DNA of 64,000 nucleotides from Sphingomonas sp. M1-B02 (lineage in GTDB: Bacteria; Pseudomonadota; Alphaproteobacteria; Sphingomonadales; Sphingomonadaceae): the NCBI RefSeq assembly GCF_026167525.1, contig NZ_CP110679.1:2715501-2779500 (forward strand), given 5' to 3'. Positions 34,689 to 59,650 of the stretch are shown piece by piece. The notes below the pieces were generated by a model. The model searched no databases, had not been told where the DNA came from, and saw nothing but the letters and a program-made list of their open reading frames with translations. The position numbers and the translations under genes are program-made. Position 1 is the stretch's first letter. Every line of letters begins with the position of its first letter.

Positions 34689-35744
34689 TCAACGAAGGCA
34701 TTCCTCGATGAGCAGGTCAAACGCGGGCCCGCGCCGGATCGGATCGGCGACGGGCAATCCCAGCCGTTCGCTGTCTTGGGCCATCAGTCGGGCCGCCTCG
34801 ACTTCGTCGAGCGCCGACGTATTGTACGCAAGGCCACCGCAGCGGATCGCGGGGTTGGTTCGTCGTCCGAGCAGCAGCGTCAATTCGATGATTTCCTCGA
34901 CGCTCGGCAACGTATATCCGGGAGCACCCAGCACCGTTTCGCGGCCCGGCTCATGGCAGAGAACGAACACATCGGGCTGGCTGCCGTGGAGTAGGCCGAG
35001 CGCCACCCCCGCATAAGCCGGGTGAGCAAGCGAGCCCTGGCCTTCCACCACGTCCCAGTGATCGGGATCGGCATCGGGCGACAAGATCTCGGCCGCGCCC
35101 GCCTCGAAATCCGAGATGATCGCGTCCATCGGTATGCCGCCGCCGGCAATCATGATCCCGGTCTGGCCGGTCGCGCGGAAATCGACATCTAGTCCGCGCT
35201 CCGCAAACGCGCGCGACAATGCCAGCGCAGTATATTTCTTGCCCAGCGCGCAATCGGTTCCGACCGTGAGCAGGCGCTTGCCGGAGCGTTTGCGCCCGGT
35301 CCCGACCGGCAACCCCTCCGGCGGCACCCGCACGTCGATCAGTCGCCGCCCGAGCAGGTGCGCGGTCTCGGCAAGTTCGGGAATGTCGGTGAGACGGACA
35401 TGCATTCCGCTGACGATGTCGAGACCCGATTCGAGCGCTTCGACCAGCGAGGCACGCCAATTTGCCGGGATGATTCCGCCGCTATTGGCGACGCCGATCA
35501 CGAGCGCCCGCGCGCCCGCTGCGAACGCCTCGCCGGATGACATTTGCGGCAGGCCGGTGGTCACCGTCGCGCCCGGTAGCGAAAGCTCTCCGACGCACTT
35601 GTCTCGGGCCCAGTCTCGCAATCCGAACGCCGTCTTTGCAAAGCCTCGCTCGGTCGTGTCTCCCAGGAAGAGCAGATAGGGCTGGGGCAGGACCAACGTT
35701 CCGGCACCGGGGTCGAATGGAGCGTTCACGGTCAGCCGCCCCAT
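34689..35744 (-). CDS. DUF1611/DgcN-family protein (D-glutamate N-acetyltransferase type)
   Basis: The 351-residue protein matches the DUF1611 family: an N-terminal Rossmann-like domain, then a P-loop ATPase-like domain with TVGTDCALGKKYTALAL, RATGQTGIMIAGGGIPMDAI and VEGQGSLAHPAYAGV. Members called DgcN act in D-glutamate catabolism with the epimerase DgcA, by N-acetylating D-Glu. No DgcA-like epimerase is visible here. Instead the gene overlaps the end of the dipeptidase-like gene by 13 bases, so the two are coupled. A role in handling D-amino acids released from peptides is an inference from this context. Confidence 0.8.
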   Translation of the reverse strand: MGRLTVNAPFDPGAGTLVLPQPYLLFLGDTTERGFAKTAFGLRDWARDKCVGELSLPGATVTTGLPQMSSGEAFAAGARALVIGVANSGGIIPANWRASLVEALESGLDIVSGMHVRLTDIPELAETAHLLGRRLIDVRVPPEGLPVGTGRKRSGKRLLTVGTDCALGKKYTALALSRAFAERGLDVDFRATGQTGIMIAGGGIPMDAIISDFEAGAAEILSPDADPDHWDVVEGQGSLAHPAYAGVALGLLHGSQPDVFVLCHEPGRETVLGAPGYTLPSVEEIIELTLLLGRRTNPAIRCGGLAYNTSALDEVEAARLMAQDSERLGLPVADPIRRGPAFDLLIEECLR

Positions 35745-36865
35745 GTCGAGGTAAGAAGGCGCTGAAAATTGCCGCCGAGCACCGCGAGGATGTTCGCATC
35801 GGAATATCTGCGGCGGATCAGCTCCTCCGTCAGGTCGAACATCTTGAGCGGGTGATCGAAGCCGTCGATATCGATCTTCTCGCGAAAGGCGTAGCTGTCC
35901 TTGTAGGCGCCGCGCAGCATCTTGTTCATCTCGGGCGAGGTGTCGTCATAGCCATAGAGATCGGAATCGGTGCCGATGCCGACGTGGTCGATGCCCACCA
36001 GCTTGACGACATGATCGATATGATCGGCATAGTTCACGATCGTCGTCGGATCGGTCTTACTCACGAAATTGCGTACACCGGTGATGCCCATCACGCCGCC
36101 TTTCGCGGCGAGCGCCTTGATCGCTTCATCGGTCTTGACCCGCGGATGATCGATCAGCGCACGACAATTGCTGTGCGTGATGGCGATCGGCTTGGGCGAG
36201 ATGGCGATCGCATCGAGCGTGGTGCGATCTCCGCTGTGCGACACATCGACCAGCATGCCGACGTCGTTCATCGACTTGATGATTTCGGCGCCGAAATCGC
36301 TGATGCCGCCGTCTACGCGGTCGGTCGATCCCGATCCGATGCGGTTCTGCGAATTATAGGTAAGTTGCGCGCAGCGCTGGCCGAGGTCGTAGAATGCCTT
36401 CACGTCGGCGGGTCGCAGGAAGTGATCGGCATTCTGCAGGCCCATGATCACCGCGACCTTGCCATCGCGCTTGGCGCGCTGAATGTCGGCGAACTTGTCG
36501 ATGCCGGTGAAGACATGGCTGTTGCGGGCTACGAAATTGCCCCAGACCGCGAAGAAGTTGAGCGCCTGCTCCTTGGCATTGGGGCCGCCCAGGCCCACTG
36601 CGTGATGGATGGCGGTGATGCCGCTGGCACGCCAGTCGGCCGCCTCCTTCTCGCTCAGCGGCTTGCCATAATATTCGGGGGAGAAGTCGATCTTGATCGG
36701 GGCGAGCATATCGATGACCACCGAGCGGTGGACGAGATCGAGCGCGCGCTTCGAATAGGTTCGCGCCGGCGCCGCACGGGCTCTGAAGCTGCCGAGATTG
36801 AGCATCGGGGCGCTCATCATGGCCATCGTTCCGCCGAGCATCTGGCGCCGTGAAACCCTCGGCAT
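35732..36865 (-). CDS. Tat-exported membrane-dipeptidase-like (M19) protein
   Basis: The 377-residue protein carries a twin-arginine signal (VSRRQMLGG, hydrophobic stretch, then RARAA) followed by a renal-dipeptidase-type amidohydrolase barrel. His210 (VDVSHSG) and His231 (THSNCRAL) of the second metal site are present. The usual first-site HxD is absent (IDMLAP instead) and the bridging Glu appears as Gln144 (MGLQNADHF), a pattern seen in a bacterial subgroup. The family splits dipeptides, often with a D-residue at the C-terminus. GGGGGAAG precedes the ATG, and a good promoter lies about 30 bases upstream. It is the first gene of the peptide operon. Confidence 0.85.
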   Translation of the reverse strand: MPRVSRRQMLGGTMAMMSAPMLNLGSFRARAAPARTYSKRALDLVHRSVVIDMLAPIKIDFSPEYYGKPLSEKEAADWRASGITAIHHAVGLGGPNAKEQALNFFAVWGNFVARNSHVFTGIDKFADIQRAKRDGKVAVIMGLQNADHFLRPADVKAFYDLGQRCAQLTYNSQNRIGSGSTDRVDGGISDFGAEIIKSMNDVGMLVDVSHSGDRTTLDAIAISPKPIAITHSNCRALIDHPRVKTDEAIKALAAKGGVMGITGVRNFVSKTDPTTIVNYADHIDHVVKLVGIDHVGIGTDSDLYGYDDTSPEMNKMLRGAYKDSYAFREKIDIDGFDHPLKMFDLTEELIRRRYSDANILAVLGGNFQRLLTSTWGG

Positions 36866-37264: not shown

Positions 37265-40096
37265 ATGCGAACGGGTCTGCAACGGACGGGTGCGCAAATC
37301 GCGCGTGGCGGCAGCGCAATGGCGGTAGCCATCGCGCTCTTCTCGGCCAGCGCTGCCATGGCACAAACCAGTGCGGTGCAAAGCACCGGCAGCCCTGCCG
37401 AGGAGGCAGGCGCGAACGAGACATCCGAGGATACCTCGATCGTCGTGACCGGATCGCGAATCGCCCGCGCCGGCTTTGACCAGCCGACTCCGACAACGGT
37501 TTTGGGCGACGTCGAATTGCGTCAGGGCGCGCGACCCAACATCCAGCAGGTTCTGAACGACCTGCCCCAGGTCCGCCCGACCGTCACGCCGCAGGTGTCG
37601 GTAGGCAACACCTCGGCCGGCACCGCGCCGGTCGATCTGCGCGGGCTGGGCACCGCGCGCACGCTGACACTCCTCAACGGGCGCCGCTTCGCGGGCGAGA
37701 ACAATCTGAACTTCGTGCCGATCAGCTTGGTCGAGCGGCTGGAAGTCGTAACCGGCGGTGCCTCCGCGGCATGGGGCTCGGGCGCGGTCGCAGGAGTCGT
37801 CAACATCATCCTCAAGGACGATCTCGAGGGCTTCGCGGTCGGCGGTCAGACCGGCATCTCGTCGCGCGGCGACGGCATGCGATACGGGGCCGATGCCAGC
37901 TTCGGCACCAGCTTCGCCGGCGGCAACGGCCATTTCATCGTTGGCGCCGAATATGTCGACGACGAAGGCATCCCCGACCGTAATTCACGGCCCAACCTGG
38001 GCAGCGCTGCCATCGTCCGTGTTACTCCAGGCAGCCTGGCCGACCTCCGCAACGAGCTGGTACGCGACGTCAACCTGTCTGCCTTCGGCACCAACCAGAG
38101 CGTCGATGGCCTTATCACCAGCGGCGTGCTGGCCGGACAGGTGTTCAACTCGGACGGTACGCTTCGGACCTTCGCGGCCACCGACTCGCGCGGCATTGGC
38201 GGAGAGGGCCGCGCCCTCTATGACGACGTGCTCGCCGCGACGCCTTTCGAGCGGTTCAACGCCTATGCGCGCCTGAGTTACGACATTGGCGGAGCGAAGG
38301 TGTGGATCGACGGCACCTATGGCCGCGCCGCCACCGACGCGAAGTTCGTCCCCGATTTTACCATCGCGCCGCCTACTATCCAGGCGACCAACCCCTTCCT
38401 CTCGTCCGCAATCCGCGCCCGACTGGCGGCAGCGGGCCAGACCAGCTTCACGCTGGGCCGGGTCTATAACGACCTGTTTCTACTGAACTTCGATACCGTG
38501 CGCGAGAATAAGGAAGTGGCGGTCGGCATTGACGGCAGCTTCGGCGGCGAGCGCTTCAAATATAGCGCTTATTATAGCCACGGCGAAGTCGAGAGCCACC
38601 AGACGGTCACCAACAACCGCATGGCGGCGCAGTTCGCCAATGCGATCAACGCCGTCTCGATGAATGGTCAGGTCGTTTGCGCGATCAACGCCGATGCATC
38701 GACCGCCAATGACGATCCGGCCTGCCGCCCCCTGAACCTGTTCGGCCAGGGCAATGCGTCGGCCGAGTCGATTGCCTATGTCCGCGGCACGCAGCAATCC
38801 TTCTCGACCAACAAGCTCGACGCTGCCGGTGTTGAGGTCCAGGGCGATATATTCTCGCTGTGGGCCGGCCCGGTCACCGTCGCGGTGGGCGCGGAGGCGC
38901 GGTGGGAAGAATCGGTCTCGACGCGCGACGCCGCCACCCTGGCCGGCGGCTTCGGCATTCCGCTGTTCACCAGCGACCTCGCCGGCGGCTTCAACGTGAA
39001 GGAAGCCTTCGGCGAAATTGCGCTGCCGCTGCTCGATGTGAGCGACACGATACGCTTGGATGTCAACGGCGCCGCGCGCTATTCGGACTATAGCAACAGC
39101 GGCGGGATCTGGTCATGGAAGGTCGGCGGCACTGCGCGGCTGTTCGACGATCTGCTGCTGCGCGCCACAAAGTCGCGCGACATCCGATCGCCCGGCATCG
39201 GCGATCTGTTCTCGGTGCGCCGGATCACTGTGGGCGCCCTTGTCGATCGCGATACGGCCGGCCGCGCCGGCGTCATTCCGGGCTACAATGCGACGCCCGC
39301 GACGGTCACGACCTACAGCGGCGGCAATCCCGACCTGCAGCCGGAAATCGGCAAGACGCTGACGATCGGCGCTTCCTATGCGCCGTCCTTCATGCGCGGC
39401 TTCAATGTCTCCGTCGACTATTACGACATCGAGATCGAAGGTGCGATCGCGACGCTTTCGGCAGCCAATCTCACCTTCGCTTGTTCGCAGGGGAACCAGG
39501 CCGCCTGCGATCGGATCACCCGCGATCCCACGACGCAGACGGTCGTCGAGGCGCGGGCGAACGCGCAGAACGTCGCCAGCGTCCAGACCCGCGGCGTCGA
39601 CGTTGAGATGTCCTACCTGCTGCAGATGTCGCAGCTCGGCGCGAACATGGGCGGCTCGCTGCGCTTCCGCGCGCTCGCCACTTATGTCGATCGGTACATC
39701 CAGAGCACCGGTGTTCCCCCGATCCTCAACACCGCGGGCGATGTGGGCGATGCGGTGGCGCTAGGCCTTCCCAAGTGGCGGGGAACGTTCGGCGCTACCT
39801 ATCAGGACAGCAATCTCGGCTTCGATGCCCGGGTGCGCTACGTCGATGGCGGCAAGTTCAACCAGCTGCTCATCGACAATCCCGCCACCGTGGCCCTCGA
39901 AGGGCTGATCAACAATGAGATAAAATCGCGCACCTATGTGGACCTGGGGATCCAGTTCAAGGTGCTCGACTCGTTCACCTTGTCTGCCAACGTCAACAAT
40001 GTCTTCGATGTCGCTCCGCCGATCAGCACCGCGGGCAACCCGCATTACGATATCGTCGGCACCTATTTCTCGATGGGCGCACGCGTAAAGTTCTGA
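37265..40096 (+). CDS. TonB-dependent outer-membrane receptor, third copy (peptide locus)
   Basis: The 943-residue protein has a signal peptide ending AAMAQ, a TonB box TSIVVTGSRI, a plug with DLRGLGTARTLTLLNGRR and GGASAAWGSGAVAGVVNI, and a barrel ending KF. The plug differs from the two sugar-island receptors and belongs to the IVVTGSRI subgroup, often linked in sphingomonads with peptide or aromatic substrates. AAGGGGA precedes the ATG. It diverges from the dipeptidase/serine-hydrolase operon, so the two halves probably form one locus for import and breakdown of a peptide-like compound. A strong terminator follows it. Confidence 0.93.
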   Translation: MRTGLQRTGAQIARGGSAMAVAIALFSASAAMAQTSAVQSTGSPAEEAGANETSEDTSIVVTGSRIARAGFDQPTPTTVLGDVELRQGARPNIQQVLNDLPQVRPTVTPQVSVGNTSAGTAPVDLRGLGTARTLTLLNGRRFAGENNLNFVPISLVERLEVVTGGASAAWGSGAVAGVVNIILKDDLEGFAVGGQTGISSRGDGMRYGADASFGTSFAGGNGHFIVGAEYVDDEGIPDRNSRPNLGSAAIVRVTPGSLADLRNELVRDVNLSAFGTNQSVDGLITSGVLAGQVFNSDGTLRTFAATDSRGIGGEGRALYDDVLAATPFERFNAYARLSYDIGGAKVWIDGTYGRAATDAKFVPDFTIAPPTIQATNPFLSSAIRARLAAAGQTSFTLGRVYNDLFLLNFDTVRENKEVAVGIDGSFGGERFKYSAYYSHGEVESHQTVTNNRMAAQFANAINAVSMNGQVVCAINADASTANDDPACRPLNLFGQGNASAESIAYVRGTQQSFSTNKLDAAGVEVQGDIFSLWAGPVTVAVGAEARWEESVSTRDAATLAGGFGIPLFTSDLAGGFNVKEAFGEIALPLLDVSDTIRLDVNGAARYSDYSNSGGIWSWKVGGTARLFDDLLLRATKSRDIRSPGIGDLFSVRRITVGALVDRDTAGRAGVIPGYNATPATVTTYSGGNPDLQPEIGKTLTIGASYAPSFMRGFNVSVDYYDIEIEGAIATLSAANLTFACSQGNQAACDRITRDPTTQTVVEARANAQNVASVQTRGVDVEMSYLLQMSQLGANMGGSLRFRALATYVDRYIQSTGVPPILNTAGDVGDAVALGLPKWRGTFGATYQDSNLGFDARVRYVDGGKFNQLLIDNPATVALEGLINNEIKSRTYVDLGIQFKVLDSFTLSANVNNVFDVAPPISTAGNPHYDIVGTYFSMGARVKF

Positions 40097-40297: not shown

Positions 40298-43198
40298 CTA
40301 CGGCCCTTTCGCGAACACCGCCGCCCCATTCACGATGCTTCCGCTCGGCCCCGACAGGAAGTGATAGGTCAGCCCGGCATGAGAAGCGCCTGACCCCGCC
40401 AGGAAGCCGAAGGTCTCGGCGAAGCAGTTGGTGCCGCTGCAGCCATTGCCGGTGACCAGCGGGCCTTCCGAATCACGGAAAGACGAGGTGAAGCGCCCGC
40501 CGCTGGTCACGGCCAGGCTGGGTGCTGCCGATCCGCCGCGCGACTGGAAGCCATAGGTCGCGCCGCCGAACTGAACCGAGAGATCGTAGCCGACCCGCAT
40601 CGTCGCGAAATCGACGGCCAGGCTGCCGGAGGCAAGCGTTCCGGGCGCAACCGACCCGTTATTGTCGGTCGGCTTGGTCGCCCCGGCAAGCGTATAGCTT
40701 GCGGTGCCGCTGGTGGGCAAATTGGTCACCTGCTTGCCCCAGACCATATGCTGCCCGCCATTTTCGGCGATCGTCGCGGTCCCCCGCCCGACAACTTGCG
40801 CCTGGGTGGTGCCGCCCGACCAGCGCGTCCAGCCGATCGCGCCGGCCAGCCCGCCATATTCGCGGTCGACATTGGTGCCGCGGCCATTGGCGCGGATGCT
40901 CTCCAGCTTGCCGTCGGAGGCGGCGACCGATTGGGTCTGGACGCTGGTGCCGTTGAGTTCGGTGAACGCACCGATCCCGGCGAACTCGACGAAGCCGGTG
41001 GGCGCCCCCGTTGCCACCGGAGTCACCGGTGGCGTGACGGGCGTCACCGGCGCCACCGCGGTATCGCGGCTGGTCTGGGTGAAGACCGCGCCGCCGGTCA
41101 GCACCGCATTGGTTGCGAGCAGCGAGTAGGTCCCGGCGATCACTTGCCCATCGGCGCCGCTACCGAACATGTTGGGAGCAAAGCGGCATCCTGCCGTGCA
41201 GCGTGCGTCCTTCGTCGTGACGGGCGCCTGGCCGAACAGGTAGAAGCCGTTTGCGGTGACCGAGCCCGTGAGCGAAGGCGCGGTCAGCCCACCGGCGCTG
41301 ACAAAGTCATAGCGCTGCGCCTGCCCCGCCGCCATCGTGGTCAGCGATCCTTCCACGCCATATTTGAGCTGGCTGCCGAACTGGACGAGCATCGACCCGG
41401 TCAGCGACGCTGCGGTCACCGCCGCGCCATCGGCATAGGTCGGGGTGGTGAAGCCTGCGATCTGATAGCGGGCGCTGCCGCGATTGCCGGTGAAGGGGAC
41501 GTAGGACGTCCCCAAGGCGAAATGCAGGCTCTCGTTCGGCGATAGCGTCACTTCGGTGGAAGTGCCCTGCGCGGTACGGCTCAAGGTGCCGTCGGTATAG
41601 CGGCCGATCACCCAGCCTTCGCCGTTCGCCGACTCGGCCAGCCGGGCAGTGCCGACACGCTGGTTGCCGTAGAAAGAGCGCGGATAGCCCGCCGCGTCGA
41701 TCTCCACCGCAACTGCACCGGCGTCGCCGCCGAAGGAGGTCGTGCCCGCACGACCGCTGAACGCGCCGGCATAGGTAGCGGGGGTGGTGGTCGGCGGAGT
41801 AACAACGGGGGGTGTGACAACCGGCGGGGTCACCACCGGCGGCGTCGTCGTCGGAGAGGTCGCGATGCTGCCGCCCGCCGCGATATGCGCGTAGAAAGCG
41901 AGCAACCGTGCGACCGCGTCGGGATCGGTGCCCTGGGGAAAGCCGACGCTGCGCAGATAATCGAGATAGATGGCGATGAGGTTCGTCGAAGCGCCGGTGT
42001 AATTCGCGGCGATGCCACCGCTTGCCAGGAAAGCGAGATAGCGATCGACCACCTCCACCCCTGCCGCCGCGGACGCCGAACCGCCTGCCGCCTGGAGCCG
42101 CTGAAACGCCTCGATCTGCGCGCGGCGGCCCGCGTCGAAAGTCTCGCCGAAGCCGAGCGAGCGGACATAATTCTCATAGGCGGCGAGGACGGCGGGGCTC
42201 AGTCCGCCATTGGCCGCCCCCGCGGCGAGCTGACGCACGTAATCGGAGTATGCCGTGCCGATCGTCGCGTCGTTGAAGCTGCCGGACGAGCCGCCTGCGG
42301 CCAGGATGCGCGTATAGGCCTCGATGATCGCTCGCTGCTGCGCCGCGAGGCCGGTCAGTCCGTCGGCGGAGAAATAGCCGAGATAGGCGTTGGCCAGGGT
42401 CGCGCCGGCAGGGGTCGCGCCGCTGCGCAGCGCCGACAGATATTGCTGGAGCGTCGAGCCTGCGAGTGCCGGAGAGAAGCCGCCGGCTGTTCCGCCGGCG
42501 CGCAAGAAGGCCAGGTTCACGTCCGCCGTCGCCCGCGAAACCGACTCGAAGTTCACGCCGATCGCGGTGTCGCGTAGCGCCAGCGCCTGTGCCAGCACAT
42601 CGGCGCGGTTGGCCTCGCGATAGATCGGCAGCAGCGGATTCTCCGACTCCAGCGCGAAGCTCGGGGCGGCGGCCACGACGGTCGCAGCCGAGGACGGCTG
42701 CACCCCGGCGGTCACCACCGCGGAGACATCCTGCGCGTCGGCCGCGAACGCGTCGCCGACGCCGAAGCGGCGGCTTTCCGAACCCGAAGCGATCGACACC
42801 TGACCGCTCAGCGCGCGCCCGGTCAGTCCGCCATTCGTCACGCCGAAGCTGGCCGCATTGCCTGCGCCCAGCGTCGCCGTAGTGCCATCGGGCGCCACGA
42901 TGCGAAGCGCATTCCTGCCGGCCCGCGCCGTGAATTTCCCCATGGCGATCTTCACGGTCGAGCCCTCGACCTCGAAGGTGGAATCTCCGACGAAGGACAG
43001 CAGGCCGCCATCATCGGTGCGCAACTGGGTGATACCCCCGCGCACCGCGAGCGGGCCCGAGAGCGGGCCGGTGGGGGCCGCGCCTGCGTCGGTCGTTCCG
43101 GTGCTGAACAATATGGTCTGGGCTGCGGCGGGGGTTGCGAGCGCCAGCAGGGAGGCGCCGGTCGCAAGCGCCAGCAGCGCGGTGCGCGAAGAAATCAT
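40298..43198 (-). CDS. Exported FecR-domain protein with helical repeats and two tandem TbpB-like barrel domains; likely Slam cargo
   Basis: The 966-residue protein has a signal peptide (cleavage near PAAAQ, no lipobox), a FecR-like beta domain (about 55-155), and an alpha-helical region (about 190-445) with repeated AYxxYLRSxGF-like units. A Thr/Pro/Val linker (449-473) follows, then two related domains: about 475-710 and 735-966, separated by a second PVTP linker. The two share matching segments (GSARYQIAGFTTPT / GTASYTLAGATKPT) and each has a Cys pair (CTAGC / CSGTNC) before a final strand GGAVF/GAAVF. This pattern resembles the C-terminal barrel of TbpB/HphA-type cargo of type XI secretion. 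The gene is 17 bases downstream of a Slam-type gene. Function unknown; surface or secreted binding protein is an inference. Confidence 0.7.
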   Translation of the reverse strand: MISSRTALLALATGASLLALATPAAAQTILFSTGTTDAGAAPTGPLSGPLAVRGGITQLRTDDGGLLSFVGDSTFEVEGSTVKIAMGKFTARAGRNALRIVAPDGTTATLGAGNAASFGVTNGGLTGRALSGQVSIASGSESRRFGVGDAFAADAQDVSAVVTAGVQPSSAATVVAAAPSFALESENPLLPIYREANRADVLAQALALRDTAIGVNFESVSRATADVNLAFLRAGGTAGGFSPALAGSTLQQYLSALRSGATPAGATLANAYLGYFSADGLTGLAAQQRAIIEAYTRILAAGGSSGSFNDATIGTAYSDYVRQLAAGAANGGLSPAVLAAYENYVRSLGFGETFDAGRRAQIEAFQRLQAAGGSASAAAGVEVVDRYLAFLASGGIAANYTGASTNLIAIYLDYLRSVGFPQGTDPDAVARLLAFYAHIAAGGSIATSPTTTPPVVTPPVVTPPVVTPPTTTPATYAGAFSGRAGTTSFGGDAGAVAVEIDAAGYPRSFYGNQRVGTARLAESANGEGWVIGRYTDGTLSRTAQGTSTEVTLSPNESLHFALGTSYVPFTGNRGSARYQIAGFTTPTYADGAAVTAASLTGSMLVQFGSQLKYGVEGSLTTMAAGQAQRYDFVSAGGLTAPSLTGSVTANGFYLFGQAPVTTKDARCTAGCRFAPNMFGSGADGQVIAGTYSLLATNAVLTGGAVFTQTSRDTAVAPVTPVTPPVTPVATGAPTGFVEFAGIGAFTELNGTSVQTQSVAASDGKLESIRANGRGTNVDREYGGLAGAIGWTRWSGGTTQAQVVGRGTATIAENGGQHMVWGKQVTNLPTSGTASYTLAGATKPTDNNGSVAPGTLASGSLAVDFATMRVGYDLSVQFGGATYGFQSRGGSAAPSLAVTSGGRFTSSFRDSEGPLVTGNGCSGTNCFAETFGFLAGSGASHAGLTYHFLSGPSGSIVNGAAVFAKGP
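41780..41854 (-). repeat. Tandem repeat encoding the PPVVT linker
   Basis: Within the FecR-domain gene, about three 12-15 base units code for repeated PPVVT steps flanked by TTTP runs. Such low-complexity linkers vary in length between strains through slippage. A shorter related PVTP linker lies near residues 717-727. Confidence 0.7.
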
Positions 43199-43215
43199 GG
43201 GTGAGATCCTTTCGA

Positions 43216-44520
43216 TCAGAACTCGGCGCGCAGGCCGAGCGAGGCCGTGACGCGGCGATAGTCGTAGAGGTCGTTGTTGCTGGCGTTGCGCGTCCAGGAA
43301 ACGCGCGGGCGCAGGCTGATCCCGGTGGCGACCACCGCGCGCAGCCCGATCGAGGCATCGAGCTGGGAATCGCGCCGGCCACGCAGGAAAAGCGGGTCCG
43401 CCCCGGCATAATCGCGATACTCGAACGCCGCCGCGCCGGTCAGCGCGATGCTGCGGGAGAGCGGATATTCGGTGCCGGTCTGGATGCCGACGAAGTCGTT
43501 GCCCAGGTGGCGCGCCGGGTTTTGGAGGGTCCGCTCGGTGCCGCCGCTAAGCGCCGCATAGACGATGCGGCCGGCATAAGTGATGCTGCCGGCAAAGCGA
43601 TCCGCGTCGCGCAGGCGATCGCGGTGATAGTCGAGCCGCGTATAGCTCGCCGCGAACGAGAGCGCCTCTCCGCCCGCCAGCCGATGCGTGAACTGACCGA
43701 TAGCCCCGAAGCTCGCGCGGAAGGGATCGTGGCCGAGCCAATATTGCTGGACCTGGCCCGACAGCGAAAGCACGTCGCGATTGGCAAGCGTATGGCCGAT
43801 CCCGATCGTGCCGGTCAGCGCCGCCTGATCGAACGCGCTATTCTCGGCATTGTCGCGAATAAATCCCAGCACCGACGCGAAGGCGCGGGTCTGGCGGCCC
43901 AGCGCATTCTGCGCGCTGATGCCGCCCTGGAGCTGGCCGAACGCCGCGTCGATCCGCCGCGCCGATCCGCCGAGGGTCGCCGGGCCGAGAAAGGCAAAGG
44001 CCGGCAGCGTGACGGTGCCGGCCGCGGTCGCCTGGTTGATGTTGCCGTCATAGCCGGCCTCGAGATCGGCGAATCCGCTCAGCGTGTTCCCGCCCCCGGC
44101 AATCTCGCGATCATAGTCGCGCACGAGCCGATCGAAGCGCTGGCGCACCGGATCGGGGAGCGACGGATCGGCGACTACCGTGTCGAACTCGGCGCGCGCC
44201 GTGTCGATATCGCCCGCCATCGCATAGACGCGCGCAATCTCGGCACGGGCCTGGACGTTGCCGGGCTGCTTCGCCAGCACGCGCTGAAGCGCCGGGAGCG
44301 CCACGCCCGGCAAGTTGGCGTCCGCCGCGGCAAGGCCGAGCGCATAGTCGAAATCGGGATCGCCGGCCCGCTGCGCCTCGAACGGGAGGAGCAATTCGAC
44401 CGCGGCTCGCGCCTGGCCACCCGCGTGCAGCGCCATCGCCCGGCCGACCAGTTCATCACTCTGCGCGGCGGCCATCGACGATATCGTCATGCACGCAGCC
44501 ACCATTCCCCACTTCACCAT
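43216..44520 (-). CDS. TPR plus outer-membrane barrel protein, Slam/DUF560 type (type XI secretion)
   Basis: The 434-residue protein has a signal peptide (ending SSMAAAQ), an N-terminal tetratricopeptide region (about 20-135, with ALHAGGQARAAVELLL, LPALQRVLAKQPGN, ARVYAMAGDIDTARAEF) and a C-terminal beta-rich part of about 285 residues beginning FADLEAGYDGNINQAT and ending RAEF, as barrel proteins do. Length, the TPR-barrel order and the GYDxNIN start of the barrel fit the surface lipoprotein assembly modulator family. It precedes the FecR-domain gene on the same strand by 17 bases, so the two form an exporter-cargo pair. ATG 44520 or GTG 44526 are both possible (GGGGGA upstream). Alternative reading: a generic TPR outer-membrane protein. 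Confidence 0.7.
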   Translation of the reverse strand: MVKWGMVAACMTISSMAAAQSDELVGRAMALHAGGQARAAVELLLPFEAQRAGDPDFDYALGLAAADANLPGVALPALQRVLAKQPGNVQARAEIARVYAMAGDIDTARAEFDTVVADPSLPDPVRQRFDRLVRDYDREIAGGGNTLSGFADLEAGYDGNINQATAAGTVTLPAFAFLGPATLGGSARRIDAAFGQLQGGISAQNALGRQTRAFASVLGFIRDNAENSAFDQAALTGTIGIGHTLANRDVLSLSGQVQQYWLGHDPFRASFGAIGQFTHRLAGGEALSFAASYTRLDYHRDRLRDADRFAGSITYAGRIVYAALSGGTERTLQNPARHLGNDFVGIQTGTEYPLSRSIALTGAAAFEYRDYAGADPLFLRGRRDSQLDASIGLRAVVATGISLRPRVSWTRNASNNDLYDYRRVTASLGLRAEF

Positions 44521-44650
44521 CACCACGCTTGATCCCCCAACGGACTGTTGGTCCGGGGCTGTGATGGATCGCAGGGGCGGCGGCATCCCTAGGTTCAGGG
44601 GGGTGTCGAAAATTCTCCCTTCTTCATCTAGGGATGGAGGTGCGGCAGGC

Positions 44651-45355
44651 TCAGCGCAGAGGCGACGGAGGCGCGACCAGGCCCCGTTCGACGGCCGCCA
44701 GCGTGGCTTCCGCGCGAGACTGCACGTTGAGCTTCTGGTACAGGATCTTGATGTAGCTGGTCACCGTGTGCGGCGTCAGGCCCAGTTTCTGGGCCGCCTC
44801 GGTCGTGGTCATGCCGGCAGATATCAGCGTCAGCACCTCCACTTCCCTGGGCGTGAGCCCGGCTTCGTCGCGGCGACTGGCCCGGGGCCGCTCCTGGAAA
44901 TGCTGCATCATCCGCCATGCGATCGACGGCGACAACGGAGGCTCCCCTGCCTCCATCCGCCGCAGCAGCGTCGACAGGGTGGCCGCGTCGCGATCCTTGA
45001 GGAGATAGCCGCCGGCGCCCGCCGCGATCGCGTCGAACAGGTGCGCGTCGTCGTCATAGATAGTCGCGACGATCGCGGTGGTCGCGGGGTGGCGCGCGGC
45101 GATATGGCGCAGGAGATCGATGCCCGATCCGTCGGGCAGGCCGAGATCGATCAGCGCCATCGTGAAGGGAAGCGTCGCCCCGCGCTCCTGCCCGTCCAGC
45201 CAGCGGCGCGCCTCCGCCAAATTGGAAGCCTGGGCCACGGCCATGTCGGGAAACGTTTCGTGCAGCGCGTGGACCAGCCAGGCGCGCACGCTTTCCTGGT
45301 CCTCGACCACAAGACACTGGCGCGTCATGCCCCCGGACTCCGCTTCAACGGCCAT
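44651..45355 (-). CDS. NarL/LuxR-type response regulator
   Basis: The 234-residue protein has a receiver domain (CLVVEDQ acidic pocket, phosphorylatable Asp in MALIDLGLPDGSG, Lys in GYLLKDRD) and a C-terminal LuxR helix-turn-helix (LTPREVEVLTLISAGM, then TTEAAQKLGLTPHTVTSYI). It overlaps the end of the histidine kinase gene by 11 bases if ATG 45355 (GGAGG six bases before) is used; ATG 45328, beginning MTRQCLVVED, is the alternative. It is clearly the partner of that kinase. The Slam-type gene starts 130 bases downstream on the same strand, so the Slam/cargo operon is a likely target. Confidence 0.92.
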   Translation of the reverse strand: MAVEAESGGMTRQCLVVEDQESVRAWLVHALHETFPDMAVAQASNLAEARRWLDGQERGATLPFTMALIDLGLPDGSGIDLLRHIAARHPATTAIVATIYDDDAHLFDAIAAGAGGYLLKDRDAATLSTLLRRMEAGEPPLSPSIAWRMMQHFQERPRASRRDEAGLTPREVEVLTLISAGMTTTEAAQKLGLTPHTVTSYIKILYQKLNVQSRAEATLAAVERGLVAPPSPLR

Positions 45356-47519
45356 AGGAGACCTCCGTGGGCACCGCTTCGCGCGGGCGATAGGCATCGA
45401 GCGGCCAGCTGAGCGTCAGCTGTGCCCCGACCGCGGGGTATTCGATCGTCAGCGCACCGCCGATCCCGGCCAGCCGCCCCGCGATCCCCGTCAGCCCCGT
45501 CCCATGCTCGGCGCCGACCGCGATGCCGAGACCGTCGTCGGAAATCTCGATAGTGCCGGTATCGCCGGAGAGGGTCATCCGCACCGTCAGGCGCCTCGCA
45601 TCGGCATGGCGTATCATGTTGGTGACCGCTTCACGAATGGCGGACGTGATCGCTTTCGAATGGTGATAGGGCATCAGCTGGCCGGTTGCCTGGGGGAGGA
45701 TCGGCCAATCCAGTTCCATCCCGGCAGCCTCAAGCCGAGAGGCGGTCTCGTGGCGAATGTCCGCGATCACCCGCGAGAGCGGCGCGCTTTCGCCGATCAG
45801 CCCGGTCACGAGCGTGCGGATATCGCGCAGGGCATCCTGGAGCAGCGATTTGACCGGCCCGTCGGCCACATGGATCCCCGACAACAACCGCGCCCCGATA
45901 TCGTCGTGCAGGTCCTGCGCCATGCGCTTGCGCTCGTCTGCCGCCCCCCTTTCATACGATTGCAGCGCATCTGCCGCCTGCCCGCAGAGGGCGGCGATTT
46001 CCTCGACCAACTGGCGATCGTCGGGGGCGAAGAGGCGCGTCCCCCTTCCGGGATAGGCCAGCCGCGCGGTTCCGCCCGCCGGATCGCCGACCAGCATCGC
46101 GACGCCCTCTTCGGCAATTCGCGCCGAGCGCGTCTCCAGATCCTGCGTAGTAATCTCCAGCGGGTCGAACAGGCGCCGCATGAGCGCCTGCCAACGAGCC
46201 GCCCGGGCGGCAGGCGGCGCGAACGCGACTTCCATCACTGCGGCGAACATCTCGCTCCGTCGCAGTTCGGATCGCCTGGCGAACCGTGACGAGAGCGCCG
46301 CCCGTGCCGGCTGGTAGCCCAACCCGACCAGGATGAGCGAGAGCCCCAACGCCGGCCCCTGATCGAGCCCCAGGCCGTAAATCATCGCTGCATCGACGAG
46401 CCACAGCGCCGCCGTTCCGCACACCGCGAAGAGGATGCGAAAGCTCCAGGTCTTTGCCTCGAACAATCGATAGCGCAGCAGCCCGAAGGTGAGGCCGGCG
46501 TAGATCAGAAGCAGCAGCGGGAAGCCGAAGCTGCCATCGACGACCGCTCGTGCGCCCACCAGATTGGGCACTGCCAGCAAAGCGATGAATCCGCCGGCGC
46601 CCAGCACGACCGAGAGGCCGAACCACGTCAGCGCCGCGCGCGCCAGCGGATCGCCGCGGGTGGAGCGGAACTGGGCGATAAGCGCGGCGCACAATGCAAG
46701 GAAGAGCAATGTCACCAGCACCTGCGACCCGCCCGTGGTTTCACGCAGCCACACCAGCGTCCCCGCCAGGCCGTCCCCCGGTGGGTTGGTCCATTCCAGA
46801 AAGCGCCCGGTCGCCGTTACGACCGCCCACAGGGCGACGATCACGGTCCCCGGCCACACCAGCCTGGTCGACACGATCCGGCGCGGATAGATGCAGAACA
46901 GCGCGACCATCACGACCGCGAACAGCGTCCCCGCGATCTCGTGCGAAGACATCAGCCAGCGATAAAGTTCGCCGTCGATTGCCAGACTCCGGGAAATTGC
47001 GATCGACGAGCCCGCAACGACGAACGGGAACAGCAGTCCGGTCAACGCCACGAGGCGGTTCGGCATACTTTTAGGTTCTGCCGCGAGGACGATCGCGGAT
47101 ACTGCGATGCCCAAAAGACCCGGGATCAATATGAGCCAGAAGCTTAGCGGATTTCCCAATATTCCGCGACGGGCATCCACGGGATAGCGTTGACCCGCCA
47201 CGACCAATGAGGCGCCGGGCGCGCGCAGCATCGCGGCGAGCAGCGTCTGTCGCTGATAAAAATGATTGAGGGCCGCGGCATTGCCGAACTCGTCGGAGTC
47301 CTTGGCAATGTCCATAGGCTGGATTCGAACGCCGCGCCCCGCCTGCTCCAGCTCTACCGGGCCGATCGCCTGGCCATCGACTAATGCGACCACCGCACCT
47401 TCGCGCTCGACAAGCGCAACGCTCGTGGCCGGTTGCAGCGCGCCGATCCACACCGCGGCAACGGCAACGGCGAAGCCCAGCAACAGCATCGCTCGGACGA
47501 TGTTCACGGGCACCAGCAT
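45345..47519 (-). CDS. Membrane sensor histidine kinase, NarX/DesK (HisKA_3) type
   Basis: The 724-residue protein has an N-terminal membrane segment (10-28), a periplasmic part of about 95 residues, some eight further hydrophobic segments (about 125-400), a GAF-like region (about 430-520), the dimerisation helix with the phosphorylated His538 (RMAQDLHDDIGARLLSG) and a C-terminal ATPase domain (IREAVTNMIRHADA, DDGLGI, GTGLTGIAGRL). This fits kinases that pair with LuxR-type regulators. The many membrane segments suggest it senses a membrane or lipid-derived signal. It is the first gene of the kinase-regulator pair. Confidence 0.9.
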   Translation of the reverse strand: MLVPVNIVRAMLLLGFAVAVAAVWIGALQPATSVALVEREGAVVALVDGQAIGPVELEQAGRGVRIQPMDIAKDSDEFGNAAALNHFYQRQTLLAAMLRAPGASLVVAGQRYPVDARRGILGNPLSFWLILIPGLLGIAVSAIVLAAEPKSMPNRLVALTGLLFPFVVAGSSIAISRSLAIDGELYRWLMSSHEIAGTLFAVVMVALFCIYPRRIVSTRLVWPGTVIVALWAVVTATGRFLEWTNPPGDGLAGTLVWLRETTGGSQVLVTLLFLALCAALIAQFRSTRGDPLARAALTWFGLSVVLGAGGFIALLAVPNLVGARAVVDGSFGFPLLLLIYAGLTFGLLRYRLFEAKTWSFRILFAVCGTAALWLVDAAMIYGLGLDQGPALGLSLILVGLGYQPARAALSSRFARRSELRRSEMFAAVMEVAFAPPAARAARWQALMRRLFDPLEITTQDLETRSARIAEEGVAMLVGDPAGGTARLAYPGRGTRLFAPDDRQLVEEIAALCGQAADALQSYERGAADERKRMAQDLHDDIGARLLSGIHVADGPVKSLLQDALRDIRTLVTGLIGESAPLSRVIADIRHETASRLEAAGMELDWPILPQATGQLMPYHHSKAITSAIREAVTNMIRHADARRLTVRMTLSGDTGTIEISDDGLGIAVGAEHGTGLTGIAGRLAGIGGALTIEYPAVGAQLTLSWPLDAYRPREAVPTEVSYGR

Positions 47520-59443: not shown

Positions 59444-59650
59444 TGATTCTATTCCCCTCCTGCTCCGCCGCTTGCTCGCGGCGGGGCATCTTTTTTGCCA
59501 TGATCGGTGCCTGCCTCTCTTTTCAAGGAAGGGGCGACGCGATAAGATCCTGCGTTCCGCGCGACTGGCGACTGGATGGAGCACCATCGGGAAGCGCGAG
59601 AGCTGGCAAGCCGCATCGCCTGGGCGCCCCTTCCCGAAACGGAGGATATT

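Follow-up and report, generated by a model that had tools for sequence, protein, structure and literature searches.

A Slam-type protein and its FecR-headed, TbpB-like partner in Sphingomonas: a possible little-known branch of type XI secretion

In type XI secretion systems (T11SS), such as those of Neisseria (Slam1) and Xenorhabdus (HrpB), an outer-membrane protein composed of tetratricopeptide repeats (TPRs) and a SlipAM β-barrel is encoded next to cargo that carries TbpB- or hemophilin-type lobes. This cargo is described as an effector N-terminus, a pedestal and a C-terminal barrel, where the barrel is held to direct the cargo in the systems studied (PMC12282271). Experimental verification has come from systems of bacteria that live with animals, in which the cargo is an adhesin, a hemophore or a metal-binding protein (PMC12282271). 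In Sphingomonadaceae, mostly environmental DUF560 proteins make up the uncharacterised subcluster 1C (Grossman 2021, PMC8406197), and a class of "Sphingomonas surface proteins" has been predicted that combines Pro-Thr repeats with two to three pairs of handle and barrel (Grossman et al. 2025, PMC12282271). Here, we describe a Slam-type gene and the adjoining gene for an exported protein (the cargo) in a 64,000-nucleotide window of Sphingomonas sp. M1-B02 (NZ_CP110679.1, positions 2,715,501 to 2,779,500).

The window pair is like the known systems in its TPRs, SlipAM barrel and TbpB-like lobes, and its cargo is unlipidated, as is HrpC (PMC8406197). It differs in that the partner in this branch starts with a FecR domain and has several lobes, in that two-component, CHASE2 or GT41 genes are found nearby, and in that a second, paralogous Slam (55% identity) of the same genome likewise has a FecR-headed partner. 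Each lobe has the predicted fold of TbpB, HphA, NHBA and fHbp, and the two stand in tandem as in TbpB, but the window cargo has no lipid anchor and carries additional FecR and helical parts. Because relatives in other Proteobacteria keep the FecR domain even where lobes are missing, the data suggest that the FecR-partnered proteins constitute a little-known branch of type XI secretion, possibly tied to signalling. The initial annotation, made from the DNA letters, had proposed a candidate for an undescribed system. Multi-lobe sphingomonad cargo had already been predicted (passages of PMC12282271), and it is the FecR head that is new relative to that text: "FecR" has zero occurrences in the texts of PMC12282271 and PMC8406197, and no paper joining FecR with T11SS, DUF560, SlipAM, Slam or TbpB was found in literature outside subscription papers and supplements. 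Compared by description alone, the window cargo, with two lobes and short Pro-Val-Thr linkers, may be a sphingomonad T11SS partner akin to the Sphingomonas surface proteins, in whose description no FecR domain is mentioned; the paralogous cargo (C1:1372435-1375206), with its very long Pro-Thr tract, fits that description by eye.

Architecture of the pair

The Slam-type protein (Table 1), for which an alternative, longer reading starts at 44586, passes the curated cut-offs of Pfam PF04575 SlipAM (29.9 bits, cut-off 22) and PF14559 TPR_19 (30.4 bits, cut-off 25). The specific TPR_Slam model remains below threshold (14 vs 35.2), and the SlipAM score of a canonical Slam encoded elsewhere in this genome is 82.8 bits. 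From its profile matches, the window protein is a SlipAM protein, though a remote one. Among 18 aligned sequences, the window protein included, 16 match SlipAM at E <0.001 and five match the porin-type model BBP2_2 at that level; the corresponding numbers for beta/gamma relatives are 18/18 and 10/18. The window-type and beta/gamma alignments match each other at hhalign E 5e-97. Matches to EpsL (21.1 bits, cut-off 275) and BcsC are weak and below cut-off.

Table 1. Positions of the pair, of cargo segments and of neighbouring genes in the window (residue numbers refer to the respective protein)
Feature	Position	Strand	Remarks
Slam/SlipAM-type outer-membrane protein	43216..44520	minus	434 aa from ATG at 44520
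Parts of the Slam-type protein			signal peptide (by eye); TPRs ~59-120; C-terminal β-barrel, SlipAM match 227-430
Exported partner (cargo)	40298..43198	minus	966 aa, begins 17 bp after the Slam-type gene
Signal peptide, residues 1-26	43121..43198	minus	AxA-type, without lipobox; by eye on translation
FecR-like β domain, residues 28-162	42713..43117	minus	
Helical region, residues 196-442	41873..42613	minus	11 helices; AlphaFold2 model
Pro-Val-Thr linker, residues 446-470	41789..41863	minus	translation; pLDDT <50 at 451-469
First TbpB-like lobe (handle + barrel), residues 471-713	41060..41788	minus	Cys pair 667/671
Pro-Val-Thr linker, residues 714-733	41000..41059	minus	translation; pLDDT <50 at 715-730
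Second, C-terminal TbpB-like lobe, residues 734-966	40301..40999	minus	Cys pair 920/925
NarL/LuxR-type response regulator	44651..45397	minus	Pfam Response_reg 58.2, GerE 57.9 bits
Membrane histidine kinase	45345..47519	minus	HATPase_c 30.5 bits; overlaps the response regulator gene
TonB-dependent receptor	37265-40096	plus	convergent with the cargo gene

The cargo carries what appears, by eye, to be a cleavable Sec-type signal peptide. In an AlphaFold2 model of the protein (mean predicted local distance difference test score, pLDDT, 77; predicted template modelling score, pTM, 0.36), each C-terminal lobe is predicted to adopt the TbpB-type fold, i.e., a handle and an eight-stranded barrel, at 7-19% identity to TbpB, hemophilin HphA, NHBA and fHbp in the structural alignments listed. 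The lobes would thus "fold like" TbpB without being members of PF01298. The Pfam models FecR and TbpB_B_D do not match the cargo itself even at E up to 10, a search of Pfam and NCBIfam yielded no model over its cut-off, and a PDB sequence search gave no meaningful match; TbpB_B_D matches two of the seven beta/gamma partners scanned, weakly (15.9 and 18.3 bits, cut-off 26). The two C-terminal halves are related to each other (BLAST E 2e-13; local score 137, whereas 500 shuffles averaged 51 and reached at most 91), and the similar segments 575-590 and 831-846 that had been noticed at the outset fall within this alignment. The four Cys residues 667, 671, 920 and 925 are invariant across 12 aligned sequences, including that of the window. 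The gene order and coordinates, the 17-base gap, the two PxVT linkers, the Cys pairs at the lobe ends and the absence of a lipobox (by eye) are as initially reported, and the structure models agree with the TbpB-like barrels, the FecR domain and the helices proposed there. The helical region modelled alone reached pLDDT 61, with no PDB match at E <0.001 and a best Foldseek E of 0.43; weak Pfam matches of these repeats to a diatom pyrenoid protein (5/12 relatives, best E 1e-4) were judged to be due to chance.

The N-terminal domain of the cargo is assigned to the FecR fold by comparison of the modelled structure. Matches to PF04773 are found in 6/34 sphingomonad-type N-termini, weakly (best 9e-4), and in 21/21 of those from beta/gamma cargo; the two groups match each other at hhalign E 1.7e-10 over 158 columns. 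With FecR/PupR anti-sigma regulators the cargo shares the FecR fold and a link to an outer-membrane protein. In those regulators, however, the partner is TonB-dependent instead of Slam-type, and in the window the FecR domain is preceded by the signal peptide alone, which leaves no room for a cytoplasmic anti-sigma domain; no such domain with a membrane helix was found in front of it.

Pairing and variation across genomes

A species-genome scan with the Slam alignment yielded 167 relatives, the best 80 of which were kept: 51 sphingomonad-type (46-59% identity) and 29 beta/gamma-type (32-36%) loci. Among loci with room for a partner, defined as at least 600 bp downstream, a FecR-headed protein is encoded directly downstream of Slam in 49/49 sphingomonad-type and 27/28 beta/gamma loci, and a lobe is detected in the partner in 47/49 and 25/28, respectively, using FecR and lobe profiles built partly from the same loci. 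Both sphingomonad-type loci without a lobe match are cut by contig ends, and in the one beta/gamma exception (L082) the FecR-headed, lobe-bearing neighbour is upstream of Slam. Most cargo genes start 10-35 bp after the Slam gene (first-Met rule), and a loose lipobox pattern is present in 2/70 cargo proteins. In 149 genomes of the family, the cargo was found in seven, and full-length Slam in the same seven, adjacent to it; the genomes without cargo gave one partial (E 4e-74) and two weak (E ~1e-21) Slam matches. Two genomes of the same genus gave neither gene. All such absences are not firm, as only part of the candidates in each genome were scored. The samples overlap, such that at least three of the seven family genomes seem to be already among the 80 loci (G014, G036 and G094 look like L024, L039 and L033). 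An earlier scan of genomes with the cargo had given 89 pattern matches, none confirmed.

In a sample of the phylum (397 genomes drawn, 28 with a match, 30 loci examined), a FecR protein is encoded directly downstream in 19/19 loci at >=140 bits, two of which are the source genome's own pairs and one of which looks like L039. The FecR neighbour is also directly downstream in L118, L119 and L126, in another position in L122 and L128, and absent from six loci (L117, L120, L121, L123, L124 and L125), four of which adjoin lipobox proteins (by eye). Ten of the 19 partners have no lobe match. Eight of these (L107-L114) have the FecR domain but finish with a low-complexity tail that is Pro/Gly/Thr-rich or acidic; the C-terminal ends of the other two (L099, L115) look barrel-like by eye. 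In a tree of 49 selected Slams, 40/42 FecR-partnered rows fall together on the same side of a branch (support 97/91), and L107-L114 together with L122 form one clade (support 96/95). The tree is midpoint-rooted, the composition of eight rows is unusual and six of the long branches are uncertain. Some of the labels come from inspection by eye: L099 counts as "with lobe" on that basis. The label "FecR only" was given to L115, L118 and L119 for want of a profile match although their ends look barrel-like by eye.

From these data it becomes apparent that the sphingomonad type XI pair proposed initially, with its SlipAM barrel and TbpB-like lobes, co-occurs in other genomes almost without exception. 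The FecR domain, which the initial annotation had regarded as an unusual feature of this cargo, is a constant element of a whole Slam branch, not an oddity of one protein. The lobes vary: sphingomonad-type cargo has one to five merged lobe matches (three in 23/47), with variable helical repeats, and beta/gamma cargo has mostly one lobe (20/25). In 46 sphingomonad-type loci, distances between Slam barrels correlate with those between FecR domains at r 0.78 (0/2000 permutations as high). For profile-defined lobes, the correlation is r 0.21 for the first (0/2000 as high) and r 0.14 for the last (94/2000 as high); with the last 235 cargo residues instead, some of which are not lobes, the last-lobe value is r = 0.06.

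The 3.6-Mb source genome has three SlipAM-type loci. The second Slam-FecR-lobe pair (L010:4508-9596, i.e., C1:1371507-1376595) consists of the paralogous Slam and a 931-aa protein whose N-terminus is FecR-like and which also has two lobes and a long Pro-Thr tract. The gene behind it encodes an exported protein of 296 aa, weakly matched by SH3_3, that recurs in 23/51 sphingomonad-type loci. The canonical Slam (SlipAM ~80 bits; L011:6878-9783, ~C1:493877-496782) adjoins a lipobox protein (by eye) with a TbpB_B_D score of 22.8 bits (cut-off 26). Second Slam-type genes are found in the same region of some beta loci (L066:6162-7496, L074:4762-6135 and L079:1488-2813, the last with its own lobe-bearing partner), and in L146:5220-14285 a stretch of ~9 kb encodes three FecR proteins alongside two Slam-type genes, in mixed orientation. 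In L088, a FecR-lobe protein is encoded upstream of Slam; that this 4.1-kb contig is filed as Limisphaerales is possibly a binning error.

Proposed recognition and function of the FecR-headed cargo

We give about even odds to the view that the pair works as a dedicated type XI (Slam-type) unit, belongs to a FecR-partnered branch and uses FecR as a docking module. The cargo would cross the inner membrane by its Sec signal peptide, after which the N-terminal FecR domain would most likely mediate recognition by, and docking on, the periplasmic TPRs of the Slam-type protein. The step from FecR constancy to docking is supported by the E. coli precedent on which it is modelled, where the FecR domain is in contact with the periplasmic portion of FecA (PMC5498481). 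The TbpB-like lobes, exchangeable in number, would then be delivered to or across the outer membrane and function outside as ligand-binding or adhesive modules, with the helices and Pro-Thr linkers as spacers. Because the cargo is not lipidated, it would either be released or stay attached through the contact of FecR with Slam. Control or readout of the unit is probably the task of the two-component system encoded next to it. No report of demonstrated export for this Slam branch was found in literature outside subscription papers.

Several observations weigh against docking by FecR. The FecR call on the window cargo relies on a predicted fold and on profile comparison with relatives. FecR is encoded nearest Slam, and linkage alone could raise its correlation; duplication of lobes blurs their orthology and could lower theirs. 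In 28/49 multi-lobe cargo proteins, where 17 are expected, the C-terminal lobe gives the top match to its own profile, which fits a targeting role of the C-terminal barrel such as that held for the studied T11SS (passages of PMC12282271; those of PMC9090332 contain nothing on targeting). The lobeless partners are essentially one clade, which may reflect a single loss of lobes along with a functional change; furthermore, the FecR-adjacent L126 and L128 group with seven other Slams of the lipoprotein type. A competing explanation that we find possible but doubtful is an ordinary T11SS with roles as in TbpB and hemophilin: the C-terminal lobe would provide the targeting signal, and the FecR domain and helices would be the displayed effector, e.g., an adhesin or ligand binder, without docking by FecR. 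Such an arrangement agrees with the published effector-pedestal-barrel order, with the bias of the C-terminal lobe and with the near-universal presence of lobes in sphingomonad-type loci, but it does not readily account for L107-L114, which retain FecR in front of a low-complexity tail, or for co-divergence with Slam that is seen for FecR and hardly for the lobes.

It is unlikely, but worth considering, that the pair is a trans-envelope sensor that relays an outside signal, by way of the outer-membrane protein and the FecR-headed partner, to an inner-membrane receptor, i.e., a CHASE2 cyclase or kinase in distant relatives and a two-component kinase in sphingomonads. A CHASE2 protein is encoded near the pair in 10/18 wide phylum loci from other genomes (all chosen for FecR), adjoins FecR in six, and is the only one found in five genomes (G424, G496, G270, G450 and G439). 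Within the fetched flanks, at E up to 1e-20, 35 of 51 sphingomonad-type loci have an OmpR-type regulator, 34 a kinase, 28 both and 41 either; at just 36-40% identity, some of the regulator matches may represent different genes of the OmpR type. The window's NarL-type pair is retained, rearranged, in a genome of the same genus. A precedent is found in Sinorhizobium, where the outer-membrane protein NsrA acts upstream of the cyclases CyaK and CyaD1/D2 (PMC7529298), which are CHASE2 proteins (PMC13001267). However, the S. meliloti FecR gene smc02177 (by smc02178, near cyaD1) is dispensable for signal perception, although it is needed to control secondary infection (PMC5498481). A tblastn search with an alphaproteobacterial Slam relative (L147) against a plasmid collection, which may lack NsrA, gave one 29% partial match, in Shinella, and thus no relation of NsrA to this Slam branch. 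In addition, the source genome's one CHASE2 gene found adjoins neither pair, the window-type two-component system is near just 2-3/51 loci, and neighbouring regulators may merely control expression. We regard as very improbable that the Slam-type protein is a TPR porin or an EpsL/PgaA-like polysaccharide-export barrel with a periplasmic scaffold as partner and nothing secreted: the weak EpsL and BcsC matches and the BBP2_2 matches point this way, but in the window protein the cut-off is passed for SlipAM and not for EpsL or BcsC, 18/18 beta/gamma relatives match SlipAM at E <0.001, and the sphingomonad-type loci are constantly paired with lobe-bearing proteins. Accordingly, the generic TPR porin that the initial annotation had listed as an alternative is not what the profiles indicate.

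A bolder form of FecR docking, which we offer as speculation with low odds, is that FecR rather than the C-terminal barrel is recognised by Slam and that the complex links exchangeable lobes or disordered tails to inner-membrane receptors, as an analogue of FecA-FecR built on a secretion barrel. An environmental branch with a constant FecR partner, in one clade of which the barrel is missing, makes the question of Slam recognition directly testable. Where the neighbour of a DUF560 protein lacks a known barrel, as noted for marine cluster 3 in the 2025 survey (PMC12282271), FecR-headed proteins are also candidates for the cargo, and the branch offers leads on glycosylated cargo and on FecR proteins outside sigma-factor control.

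Neighbouring genes and other observations

On the minus strand of the window, the gene order is kinase, NarL-type regulator, Slam, cargo. The regulator gene ends 130 bp before the Slam start codon, and the NarL-type protein is a possible regulator of the pair. Its homologue is found near Slam in L017, L052 and L061 (3/51) and that of the kinase in L052 and L061 (2/51); in L129, the genome of the same genus mentioned above, both (kinase 32%) are placed around Slam and cargo. A view of the two-component system as not conserved, reached with the window's own genes as queries, was overturned with other query genes. In the 23 loci with the ~300-aa exported protein near the pair, the order Slam, cargo, 300-aa protein, regulator, kinase is seen in 18. 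The same genes are near-absent from the 29 beta/gamma loci (OmpR-type regulator 1, kinase 0, 300-aa protein 0).

A TPR-GT41 glycosyltransferase is encoded downstream in 18/29 beta/gamma loci, directly behind the cargo in at least nine (examples are L067:9735-11927, L073:4533-6830 and L079:10638-12833); L082 would be the 19th, with a match in the TPRs only. This location provides a lead towards glycosylated T11SS cargo, the existence of which has been suggested (Grossman 2025, PMC12282271). In the literature searched for GT41 or HMW1C with T11SS, both terms appear together just in a review of type 5 secretion (PMC8151025).

The CHASE2 cyclases or kinases near distant Slam-FecR pairs are those of L130, L132-L135, L139-L142 and L147. 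The CHASE2 gene of the source genome (L149:5575-11685, i.e., C1:1658574-1664684) is beside a FecR-profile protein, and a divergent gene at that locus looks, by eye, like a TpsB-type two-partner-secretion transporter. The TonB-dependent receptor of Table 1 was rejected as part of the unit, with homologues near 2/80 loci (a count for this receptor's homologues, not for other receptors). A promoter scan of the locus found no site, and terminators were at chance level. Elsewhere in the window, the genes of which were typed in part, are an M19 membrane dipeptidase at 35732-36865 (minus strand) and a ZMP/ZTP riboswitch at 59551-59632 (plus strand; 51.3 bits vs a gathering score of 39).

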